64,000 nucleotides of DNA, from contig JAOZFN010000014.1 in the NCBI GenBank assembly GCA_027492205.1, positions 62,001 to 126,000 of the forward strand, read 5' to 3'. Source of the DNA: Thermoproteota archaeon (GTDB lineage: Archaea > Korarchaeota > Korarchaeia > Korarchaeales > Korarchaeaceae). Position numbers and translations under genes: made by a program. This document shows positions 9,233 to 13,922 of this stretch, in pieces. The notes under the pieces were generated by a model. It was given only the letters and a program-made list of their open reading frames with translations, was not told the origin of the DNA and searched no databases. The first letter of the stretch is position 1. The number at the start of each line of letters is the position of its first letter.

Positions 9233-9949
9233 GTGGGGTTGCGGGTGGAGCTCAGGAGTCCCCGCGCGCTCACCGCGCTCACTCTCGCAGTAGCGGGCGC
9301 TTTCTCAGCAGCAGTCTCCCTCGCGTGGCCTCCAAAGCCCTACGAGGTGGCTCTGGGAGGGATTTTCGTCGGCTGGATACTCCTGATGGTCTTCAAGGCG
9401 GCCAAGGTGGTCTCCGCGAGGCTCAACAAGTACATCGCCAGGAAGTTCATCCACTTCACCACCGGCGGCCTCGTGGCCGCGCTGTCGCCATTCGTCTTCG
9501 AGACGCCCACAGTCCCGATAATTGGGGCCGTCGGAATGGCCCTCATGACCCTCATCCCCAGGATATGGGGCAGGGAGCTGGACTGGTACCAGGTAAAGAA
9601 CAACTTCGGCGACACCTGGTTCTGCGTGAGCTTCGCGGCCCTTTACACCTCTCTCTGGTACGAGGACAAGTGGCTCGCCGTGGTGCCAGCTCTGTTCATG
9701 GCCTACGGAGACGGGGTGACGGGCGTGGTGAGGAGCGTAGTCTACAGGGACTGGGTGAAGGGCGGCTGGGGGAGCCTCGCCATGCTCCTGGTCTCGCTCC
9801 CCATCGGGGCCGCCGTGAAGGGGGTGGCCGGCGTGGCGTCCGCCCTGGCGGCCACCGTGGTTGAGAAGCTCCCCTACATAGACGACAACATAACCGTGCC
9901 CGCCGTATCGGCCGCGGTGCTCTACGCCCTCCACGCGCTGGGGGCTTGA
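9233..9949 (+). CDS. CTP-dependent polyprenol/phytol kinase-like membrane protein (SEC59/COG0170 family)
   Basis: 238 aa with about seven membrane helices. The family signatures are ARKFIHFTTGGL near the N-terminus, FMAYGDGVTGVVRS in the middle, a GGWGSLAMLLVS segment where kinases have the K-x-G-S stretch, and EKLPYIDDNITVP near the end (usual D-N-l-x-V-P). Dolichol, phytol and geranylgeraniol kinases share these features and use CTP. In an archaeon the likely role is phosphorylating an isoprenoid alcohol for membrane lipid salvage or glycan carrier supply. CDP-archaeol synthase is a related alternative. Confidence 0.65.
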   Translation: MGLRVELRSPRALTALTLAVAGAFSAAVSLAWPPKPYEVALGGIFVGWILLMVFKAAKVVSARLNKYIARKFIHFTTGGLVAALSPFVFETPTVPIIGAVGMALMTLIPRIWGRELDWYQVKNNFGDTWFCVSFAALYTSLWYEDKWLAVVPALFMAYGDGVTGVVRSVVYRDWVKGGWGSLAMLLVSLPIGAAVKGVAGVASALAATVVEKLPYIDDNITVPAVSAAVLYALHALGA

Positions 9950-10484
9950 ACCTTTGGAGGCCGCTCCAAACCTCGCCGTCGCGGATCGACCGAGCCCTTG
10001 CCGTAGCTGATGAGGGCCACCGCCGCCATTATTGTCATCACGATGAGGATGGCCTCCGTGGCCGTTCTGGATATCCCGGGCCTGCCGGCCGGAGTCCACA
10101 CGGCCATCACCTCTGATAGTGTAGGAGTATACGGCGAACGTGCCCTGGGGCCCGTAGAGCTTCAGCATGTGGTGCTCCTTCGCTGTGGCGTAGGTTGATG
10201 TGTAGCGTCCCGCATACTTGGTGCACTGGTTGTCCGACCACCTGAGGGTGGCCACCTCGCCTACCCCCAGGACGTCGTCCCCAACGACGTCGACGTAGTC
10301 CGCCTCCCCGCAGTAGTGATCGTCCACGATTGGTATCCAGACCCCACGCAGACCGGCGTTCCGCAGCTCCATGGGCCCATTGTTCTTCACGCCCACCTCC
10401 ATGCACGTCCCGGAGGTGCGGCTGGACTGGGCAAAGTAGGCCCCGTAGATCTCCAGAGTAGACGGGCCGAGATGGAGGTCGTCC
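9922..10484 (-). pseudogene. Frameshifted secreted protein with C-terminal membrane anchor
   Basis: From about 10484 down to 10115 the minus strand reads as an extracellular beta-domain (LEIYGAYFAQSS, MEVGVKNNGPMELRN, GVGEVATLRWSDN, YGPQGTFAVYSYTI), resembling CARDB/adhesin-like folds. At about 10115 a one-base shift is needed to continue into WTPAGRPGISRTATEAILIV, a membrane helix, and a short basic tail ending at 9922. There is no signal peptide and an in-frame stop lies just upstream (10484-10486). The two fitting halves in different frames suggest a decayed or mis-called gene. Confidence 0.5.
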
Positions 10485-10531
10485 TAAAGAGGACGCTCGA
10501 GGCGTACGAGCCTATTGGGCCGAAGACCCCG

Positions 10532-10539
10532 CTTTTACC
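10532..10539 (+). promoter_or_regulatory. TATA box for the C/D-box sRNA
   Basis: CTTTTACC about 25 nt before the predicted 5' end of the sRNA at 10561. Confidence 0.45.
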
Positions 10540-10560
10540 CAAGTCCGACACGAATGCCCC

Positions 10561-10620
10561 CGGGCGATGATGACGCGATGGGGCGCGGAGGCGTGAAGAT
10601 GCAGTGCCGACCTGAGCCCG
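10561..10620 (+). ncRNA. C/D-box sRNA candidate (2'-O-methylation guide)
   Basis: All elements are in order: 5' stem strand CGGGC (10561-10565), C box ATGATGA (10567-10573), 12-nt guide (10574-10585), D' box CGGA (10586-10589, one mismatch to CTGA), a 3-nt spacer, C' box GTGAAGA (10593-10599, one mismatch), 12-nt guide (10600-10611), D box CTGA (10612-10615), and 3' stem strand GCCCG (10616-10620) pairing perfectly with the 5' strand. Equal 12-nt guides and the short D'-C' spacer are what archaeal C/D sRNAs show. It lies between convergent genes with its own TATA box. The targets would be rRNA or tRNA sites complementary to the guides; I could not check them. Confidence 0.7.
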
Positions 10621-10644
10621 CTCCCCCCTCATCTCCAAAGGGGC

Positions 10645-11439
10645 TCAGGAGAAATCCAGGTGTGAGCCTAGCCACAGCAGCGCCGCTCCGACGGCGGGGG
10701 CAAGCAGGGCGGGGGTCACCGCAGCGCCCTGGGCCACGGACATCAGGGGCACGAACGACGCCATGTAGGCGACCCTCCACATCGGGCTTGTCCGCGGCGG
10801 GAGGGCGCCACCGAAGATCTTGGTGAAGAGGCAGAGGGCCACGGCCGAGACGGTGAACCAGCCCAAGAAGTTGGAAAGGGGGATCCCGAACCACGAACCC
10901 CCCTCCTCCCAGGACCAGGCGCCCAGGGCCACCATGACGGGGTCGACGGCCAGGTCCAGCGCAACCATCATCGCCGAGGCAAGAGCTACCCTCGCCCAGG
11001 CCCGACGCGTCAGGGAGGAGGCGGCCGAGTAGCAGACGAAGAGGTAGACACCCCAGGCGATCACCACCGGAACCGGGACCCCGAGGATCTCCGGGCCGAA
11101 CTCGGAGTAAGAATACCTCCCGAACGGAATCCCGTAGCGCACTCCGACGACCTCGAACGCGAGCCCAACCGCCGAGCCGACTGGTGGCAGGGCCAGCCCC
11201 GGCCTCCAGTACCGCGCCCCAGTGAGAATCAGCGCCAATGCGAAGCAGGCCGTGAGGATCAGGTCCGACTCCGCCCTCCTGCCCGTCAGCGCTATCGCGG
11301 CGTTGAGGATGAATCCAAGCGAGACCACGACGGCCGGGGCCCAGTCAGATTCCTCCGAGACCCTCACAGGCTGAGGCGCCTCCGGACGCAAAAAAAGGTG
11401 CGCCGGCGCCTTCGGCCAGCTCTCCCAAAGGTCCTGCAC
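10645..11439 (-). CDS. CruF/bisanhydrobacterioruberin-hydratase-like carotenoid protein (COG2324)
   Basis: 264 aa with about seven membrane helices. The diagnostic COG2324 stretches are EVVGVRYGIPFGRYSYSEFG, LGVPVPVVIAWGVYLF, and DLAVDPVMVALGAWSW followed by SWFGIPLSNFLGWF. Members hydrate C50 or acyclic carotenoids (bacterioruberin route in archaea). No phytoene synthase, desaturase or lycopene elongase is in the window, so the pathway context is missing. GTG start at 11439 with a TATA-like GGTTATCG near 11470. Confidence 0.75.
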   Translation of the reverse strand: MQDLWESWPKAPAHLFLRPEAPQPVRVSEESDWAPAVVVSLGFILNAAIALTGRRAESDLILTACFALALILTGARYWRPGLALPPVGSAVGLAFEVVGVRYGIPFGRYSYSEFGPEILGVPVPVVIAWGVYLFVCYSAASSLTRRAWARVALASAMMVALDLAVDPVMVALGAWSWEEGGSWFGIPLSNFLGWFTVSAVALCLFTKIFGGALPPRTSPMWRVAYMASFVPLMSVAQGAAVTPALLAPAVGAALLWLGSHLDFS

Positions 11440-12354: not shown

Positions 12355-12933
12355 ATGGACTTCTCTCGCGAGGCTGAGAGGGCCAGGAGCTACCTGGACT
12401 TGGGCCCCCAGGACATCAGGGTGATAAGGCAGATAAGGCCACTGATAGTGTCTCACGAGGACGAGATCATTCAGGGAGTCTTGAATTCCCTGCTATCAGA
12501 TCAGGAGGCCGTCTCGGTGGTCAAGGAGTCTGGGCTGTCTGCAGAAAGGGCCATAGCGCTCTTCAAGTCTGTGATTCGCCTGACGCTCTCCGGGGATTTC
12601 GGGGGCGAGCACGCAAAGCGCGTGTTCGTGGTCGGCGCGGCGCACCTCAGAGTCGGAGTGGGCCACAGGCTGATGACGCTGAACGCGGGCGCTTTCGCGC
12701 GGGAGGTCGCGAGGGTACTTGGCGAGGCCGGGATGTGCGAGGCCATAGTCCCGGCTCTGAAGGCCATCTTTTGGACCCTGTCAATTATAACCGAAAGCTA
12801 CCTAGAGGCCGAGCGCAGGAGCCTTAGGGAGGCCTCAGGTCTCAGGCCAGAGCTGGTGGAGAGGCTTAAGCGGGCTAAGGCCCGCGAGATTTACGATGAG
12901 TTCAGGGCTGTAGGCAGGACGGAGCTGGTTTGA
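12355..12933 (+). CDS. Protoglobin-like haem protein
   Basis: 192 aa, the length of single-domain protoglobins. The pattern matches: YLDLGPQDIRVIRQIRPLIV at the N-terminus, helices through QGVLNSLLSD, then KRVFVVGAAHLRVGVGHR, where His97 occupies the place of the proximal haem ligand of globin-coupled sensors (G-x2-H-x-R-x-G). Protoglobins of archaea bind O2, CO and NO. There is no C-terminal signalling domain. The deoxyhypusine synthase gene follows directly but has its own TATA box, so regulation is probably separate. Confidence 0.75.
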   Translation: MDFSREAERARSYLDLGPQDIRVIRQIRPLIVSHEDEIIQGVLNSLLSDQEAVSVVKESGLSAERAIALFKSVIRLTLSGDFGGEHAKRVFVVGAAHLRVGVGHRLMTLNAGAFAREVARVLGEAGMCEAIVPALKAIFWTLSIITESYLEAERRSLREASGLRPELVERLKRAKAREIYDEFRAVGRTELV

Positions 12934-12945
12934 AGTGCCCGTGGG

Positions 12946-12953
12946 GTTATAAT
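12946..12953 (+). promoter_or_regulatory. TATA box deciding the deoxyhypusine synthase start
   Basis: GTTATAAT, 28-35 nt before the ATG at 12981. It favours 12981 over an in-frame start at 12930 that overlaps the protoglobin gene. Confidence 0.55.
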
Positions 12954-12980
12954 GGGCGCCCGGGTGATTCACCGAGCCGT

Positions 12981-13922
12981 ATGGAGTACGTTAGGGACCT
13001 CGTCTGGAGGCCGGGAATGACCGTGAGGGAGCTGGTGGAGGGGTTCGCCGCCACGGGCTTTCAGAGCACGGAGCTCTACAAGGCCGCCCAGATAGTCGTG
13101 AGGATGAAGAGGGAGGGGGCGAAGGTCATCCTCACCTTCACGTCCAACATGGGGACCTCGGGGCTGAGGGGCCTCTTCGCCCAGCTGATCGGGGTGGGCC
13201 TGGTTGATGTGGTGATAACAACCGTCGGCGCGATAGAGGAGGACGTGATGAAGGCCCTGGGCGAGAGGTTCTACATTCACCGGTTCCAGGCCGACGACGT
13301 GGAGCTCCACGAGAGGGGCATGAACAGGGTCGGCAACCTGCTGATCAGCAACGACAGCTACGCCAGGTTTGAGGCGTTCGCCACCCGGCTCCTCGAGGAG
13401 ATCTACCGGGAGAAGAGGAGGCTCACCGTGTCGGAGCTCCTCCGGGAGATAGGCCTGAGGCTGGAGGACGAGAACTCCTTCCTCTACCAGGCGGCCAGGA
13501 GGGACGTACCGGTGTTCTGCCCCGCCATAACCGACGGCTCCTTCGGGTTTCACCTCTTCATGGCGAGGGAGAGGCACCCGGACTTCGACGTGGACGTGGT
13601 GGGGGACTTCGGTAGGATGATCCTGTACCTGAGCCAGGAGGACAGGAAGGGCGTCATAGCCCTGGGCGGGGGAGTGTCGAAGCACCACGCGATCCTCATG
13701 ACCCTCCTGAGCGGCGGCGCCGACTACGCGGTCTACATCACCACCTCAACCCAGTTCTCGGGGAGCATGAGCGGCGCCACGACGTCGGAGGCCAAGAGCT
13801 GGGGAAAGATCAAGGACGACTCCGACTCCGTCACCGTGATAGGCGACGCGACCATCCTCTTCCCGCTGGTCGCCGCCTACTCCCTCGAGGTCCTGAGGGA
13901 GGAGGGGCTGATAGAGGCGTAG
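12981..13922 (+). CDS. dhs: Deoxyhypusine synthase
   Basis: 313 aa. It transfers the aminobutyl group of spermidine (via NAD) to a lysine of translation factor aIF5A, the first step of hypusine formation. Motifs seen: FTSNMGTSGLRG (NAD site), ITTVGAIEEDVMKALG, CPAITDGSFG, GGGVSKHH, and the active-site segment TTSEAKSWGKIK, whose Lys (about 276) forms the covalent imine. The ATG at 12981 is chosen because of the TATA box at 12946. A PLP-dependent decarboxylase gene follows after 29 bp, consistent with a shared polyamine job. Confidence 0.95.
   Translation: MEYVRDLVWRPGMTVRELVEGFAATGFQSTELYKAAQIVVRMKREGAKVILTFTSNMGTSGLRGLFAQLIGVGLVDVVITTVGAIEEDVMKALGERFYIHRFQADDVELHERGMNRVGNLLISNDSYARFEAFATRLLEEIYREKRRLTVSELLREIGLRLEDENSFLYQAARRDVPVFCPAITDGSFGFHLFMARERHPDFDVDVVGDFGRMILYLSQEDRKGVIALGGGVSKHHAILMTLLSGGADYAVYITTSTQFSGSMSGATTSEAKSWGKIKDDSDSVTVIGDATILFPLVAAYSLEVLREEGLIEA

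Follow-up and report, generated by a model that had tools for sequence, protein, structure and literature searches.

Archaeal box C/D guide sRNAs are described as RNAs of about 60 nt that carry C, D', C' and D boxes, two 12-nt guides, a short D'-C' spacer and a closing stem, and that select their targets by the N+5 rule (PMC4644070, PMC7994747). We analyzed a window of 64 kb—positions 62001-126000 of contig C3 in a 1.94-Mb archaeal genome bin (G000:C3:62001-126000)—and we conclude with high confidence that the plus-strand segment at 10561-10620 is an archaeal box C/D guide sRNA, with a D guide that is predicted to direct 2'-O-methylation of 23S G2509 (Gm2509, E. coli numbering). It is an unannotated but ordinary member of this well-known class, and finding one in an archaeon is no surprise. 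All of the shared features listed above are found, and the differences from the described RNAs are a D' box that reads CGGA and a k-turn core pair that is G-C in relatives.

The components of the element are listed in Table 1. They follow one another in the order stem, C, guide, D', spacer, C', guide, D, stem; the C and D boxes lie beside the terminal stem, where a k-turn is possible, and the internal C' and D' boxes are separated by the short spacer. The first-pass annotation had described a complete set of four boxes with two 12-nt guides, a 3-nt D'-C' spacer and a 5-bp closing stem, and every one of these was located in the segment. Its reading as a C/D-box sRNA is further borne out by an 11-bp pairing of the D guide with 23S rRNA, by a core that is conserved where the flanks are not, and by the presence of genes for the partner proteins. 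The latter comprise fibrillarin (PF01269, E 7.6e-89) and Nop5 (PF01798, E 2e-69), which are adjacent on contig C16, and two L7Ae-family genes (PF01248).

Table 1. Positions of the sRNA, its parts and flanking features in the 64-kb window
Feature	Position	Strand	Sequence	Remarks
Box C/D sRNA	10561-10620	+	CGGGC-G-AUGAUGA-CGCGAUGGGGCG-CGGA-GGC-GUGAAGA-UGCAGUGCCGAC-CUGA-GCCCG	~60 nt, unannotated
Closing stem, 5' strand	10561-10565	+	CGGGC	5 bp with 10616-10620
Nucleotide between stem and C box	10566	+	G	unpaired
C box	10567-10573	+	AUGAUGA	fits RUGAUGA
D' guide	10574-10585	+	CGCGAUGGGGCG	12 nt
D' box	10586-10589	+	CGGA	single letter differs from CUGA
D'-C' spacer	10590-10592	+	GGC
C' box	10593-10599	+	GUGAAGA
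D guide	10600-10611	+	UGCAGUGCCGAC	12 nt; 23S-pairing segment GCAGUGCCGAC
D box	10612-10615	+	CUGA
Closing stem, 3' strand	10616-10620	+	GCCCG	pairs with 10561-10565
TATA-like box	10532-10537	+	CTTTTA	~26 nt upstream of stem
Secreted or pilin-like gene remnant	~9922-10526	-		frame-broken, 5' end missing
Inverted repeat, 9 bp	10610-10618 with 10640-10648		CCTGAGCCC/GGGCTCAGG

Transcription of the sRNA would most likely start from a TATA-like promoter of its own; boxes C and D would form a k-turn and C' and D' a k-loop, and both would bind L7Ae. Nop5 and fibrillarin would then join the L7Ae-bound RNA, the D guide would pair with 23S positions 2505-2515, and fibrillarin would add a methyl group to the 2'-OH of G2509, where helix 90 begins beside the peptidyl-transferase centre, presumably to the benefit of the cell.

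A search of the element against Rfam returned no family that reaches its gathering score. The best Rfam match, sR1 (RF01152; 25.5 bits, E=3e-5), is colinear across the whole element and its boxes, but its guides differ from those of the window sRNA and the score lies below the 45-bit gathering threshold; membership in sR1 was rejected on both counts.

Guide complementarity and predicted targets

The D guide forms 11 contiguous Watson-Crick pairs with the 23S rRNA of the same genome, at 2645-2655 (E. coli 2505-2515), with the pairing ending at the D box, and the fifth nucleotide before the box pairs with G2649, the equivalent of E. coli G2509. By the five-upstream rule this match predicts Gm2509, a very likely modification, in helix 90 and beside the peptidyl-transferase centre; the site falls within helices 90-93, which have been reported as a methylation hotspot of archaeal C/D sRNAs (PMC4644070, PMC7994747). 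A literature search for Gm2509 in rRNA returned only unrelated gene names. The matched 23S stretch, GUCGGCACUGC, is lineage-specific, and most other sampled archaea read GUCGGCUCUUC or similar.

Shuffled guides find a perfect 11-mer in rRNA at p = 0.0026, and a perfect 11-mer of this kind precedes 2 of the 770 CTGA sites in the window, of which the D box of the sRNA is one. With a wider target set (tRNAs added, G.U pairs allowed) about 3% of CTGA-adjacent 14-mers score equally, and complementarity taken alone is therefore moderate evidence. Ten guide nucleotides, GCAGUGCCGA, are invariant in all nine genomes that carry the element, however, and the target is identical in each of the six carriers with that 23S region assembled; the three observations together are strong.

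Three genomes (G005, G008 and G009; 23S loci L177, L179 and L185) have A in place of G2509, and this is matched by a change of C to U in the opposite strand of helix 90 (GAGCUGGG to GAGUUGGG). The covariance model described below detects no sRNA in these genomes, and no guide variant fitting their G2509A 23S was found within 3 mismatches. Since other genomes with G2509 are also without the sRNA, there is no clean correlation between target and sRNA.

The comparison of both guides with rRNA and tRNA had been put forward in the first-pass annotation as a test that could refute the reading, and the two guides gave different answers: the D guide has its 11-bp match, with G2509 at the fifth position, and the D' guide has no match beyond chance. 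None of the D' pairings with 23S, 16S or 43 tRNAs, under several placements of D', beats shuffles (the 16S sequences used were those of relatives; the 16S of this genome bin is incomplete). The best of them, with 23S 320-331 and with 23S C964 (a weak candidate), are equalled by about 30% of shuffles, and both were rejected as D' targets. The D' guide is either an orphan or has a target that this comparison missed. Orphan guides are common, amounting to 28% in Pyrobaculum (review PMC7994747).

It is unlikely that the RNA is mainly a chaperone of rRNA folding, which would keep helix 90 (through the D guide) and 23S ~960-970 (through the D' guide) in contact while the ribosome assembles and would methylate only as a secondary role. 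Two-guide chaperones have been proposed for archaea (PMC4644070), and an uninterrupted run of 10 pairs, two of them G.U, is possible between the D' guide and 23S at E. coli 960-970; but this pairing is no better than chance, is broken by a mismatch in the guides of genus g3, and is poorer in genome G017.

Conservation and gene context among relatives

Relatives of the element were sought by a blastn-type search, a pattern scan of GTDB genomes and a covariance model built from nine copies. It is present in 9 of 29 genomes of a phylum-level group, probably Korarchaeia, where the carriers belong to two genera (covariance model E<=2e-15; next best 4e-4). Carriers in the GTDB pattern scan include the MAGs Aegir_M25_B147, _B107 and _B233, S143_77_esom, 356-284, PIR-30 and T2, which are labelled Thermoproteota or Crenarchaeota. 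The other 20 genomes of the group have no detectable copy, and several of these, G007 among them, have an identical 23S target. Weaker covariance-model matches elsewhere bear different guides and so are other C/D RNAs or noise; they were rejected as homologues.

The sister genome G001 is about 96% identical over the element, and in the g3 genomes identity of 75-87% extends over ~60 nt only, with unrelated flanks. Three gene neighbourhoods are seen among the carriers: in the window and in G001 the element is accompanied by a carotenoid-biosynthesis-family gene (PF04240) and a small secreted- or pilin-like gene (the pilin name was given by eye); in several g3 genomes it precedes a pcp-like gene (also named by eye), a GTG-started extension of which can overlap its 3' part; and in G017 it lies between other genes. 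That the element is conserved and its surroundings are not fits an RNA gene under selection.

The position directly upstream of the pcp-like reading frame in g3 genomes would also suit a C/D-like RNA that acts elsewhere and matches rRNA incidentally, for example a 5'-leader k-turn bound by L7Ae, and L7Ae is reported to regulate translation through k-turns in archaea (PMC5539422). We regard such a role as very improbable: the next gene is on the opposite strand in the window and in G001, G017 provides a third context, and the invariance of the ten 23S-matching guide nucleotides would go unexplained.

Structure was assessed in an alignment of nine sequences, eight of them distinct. In the closing stem 95% of alignment cells are paired, as against 54-56% with the partner slid by one column, and two pairs, 3-62 (C-G vs G-C) and 4-61 (G-C vs U-G), differ among relatives in both partners. 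This count of both-sides changes was matched in 13 of 500 shuffles; the counts are small, so that the stem covariation is supportive and not decisive. In the C box, AUGA does not vary, nor does the G two positions after it, and the D box in relatives is CUGA, or CCGA where the C box has a corresponding change from U to G. The third pair of the C/D core (columns 13-55) is U.U in the window, G-C in g3 and G.U in G017, and the C'/D' core has A.G in most sequences and U.U in G017; these changes keep a k-turn. The D' box is CUGA in G017, where C' reads UGAUG, and C' fits RUGAWG in all relatives. Single-strand folding prefers a rival hairpin between the D box and stem and a downstream repeat (z -0.9). 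Folding computed without the bound proteins is unreliable for C/D RNAs.

A regular expression for the strict layout has its sole match in the 64 kb at this site and none in 100 first-order Markov shuffles of the window, and a relaxed layout scan again finds this site alone, against 0.05 per shuffled window. No further C/D RNA was found in the window by pattern, and the covariance model gave weak matches there, with E of at least 0.03. Open reading frames overlap the element on both strands, but a chance match in GC-rich DNA or a piece of a coding sequence has next to no probability in view of these controls, the covarying pairs and the confinement of conservation to the element across three gene contexts.

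Putative promoter and flanking sequences

The TATA box that the first-pass annotation had placed about 25 nt upstream is present, at essentially that distance (Table 1). The tRNA genes of this genome have upstream boxes such as CTTTTATA and TTTTTAT at 25-30 nt, which CTTTTA matches in distance and resembles in its letters, and the g3 genomes have TTTTTCTT at a similar distance in flanks that are otherwise unrelated; a comparable TATA-like box is absent in G017. The window is about 208 bp shorter than G001, with homology lost at ~10527, 4-5 nt ahead of CTTTTA, and both the box and the sRNA are intact in G001 where homology resumes. The claim that the sRNA has its own promoter is plausible rather than proven, from a box that lies at the distance seen for tRNA genes and is spared by the length difference. 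A review puts the share of archaeal C/D genes with their own TATA-like box at only ~20% (PMC7994747), which makes this a minority but known arrangement.

The sRNA had also been placed between two convergent genes. A convergent pair, 9233-9949(+) and 10645-11439(-), does enclose it, but the minus-strand remnant is nearer on the left, and both immediate neighbours of the sRNA are therefore on the minus strand. The homologue of the remnant is open in G001 (L119:1913-2425, 170 aa), and the ~208 bp missing in the window include the 5' end of the remnant gene; its frame breaks suggest that it may be a pseudogene or an assembly error.

One arm of the 9-bp inverted repeat overlaps the D box and stem of the sRNA, and the other contains the PF04240 stop codon. 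It is also found in G001 and is absent in g3; the hairpin that its two arms could form may terminate transcription of the sRNA or of the PF04240 gene. Further along the window, a protoglobin-like gene at 12355-12933(+) overlaps the start of a deoxyhypusine synthase gene at 12930-13922(+).

The 23S active site and a second C/D family

The 23S sequences of 15 genomes of the phylum, including that of the genome studied here (G000:C12, L026), were aligned with those of E. coli and nine other clearly aligning archaea. Position 2504 is C in all 15 (U2504C), and U in E. coli and the nine other archaea; U2504 is a near-universal peptidyl-transferase residue. Phylum-wide substitutions are also seen at A2453 (to G; A or U elsewhere), A2497 (to U; A elsewhere), A2448 (to G) and C2551 (to A), together with U2500 to C in the class of the window (U elsewhere) and A2503 to U in families f4 and f5. 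In E. coli A2453 and C2499 form a wobble pair, which the change of A2453 to G could turn into a G-C pair here. No paper naming these substitutions was found among the open-licence papers searched, nor did any of those papers mention 'C D box' together with a Korarchaeia name.

Gm2509 would lie five nucleotides from 2504, and one suggestion, an unlikely one, is that it helps to stabilise the altered active site (U2504C and A2453G, with U2500C in the class of the window). The predicted Gm2509 is in any case a concrete, testable site beside the peptidyl-transferase centre, in a lineage with an unusual 23S active-site sequence, and the element illustrates that reading raw sequence can find RNA genes of this kind that annotation misses.

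A second C/D sRNA family occurs in the lineage (L147 in G007, L149, L151, L152 and L163-L166), with ~60 nt at the match. It shares the box architecture and a G/C-rich closing stem with the window sRNA and differs from it in its guides: the D' guide has a match of 10-13 nt at the 16S 3' end, over the anti-Shine-Dalgarno sequence, and in members L163-L166 the D guide matches 16S at ~528.
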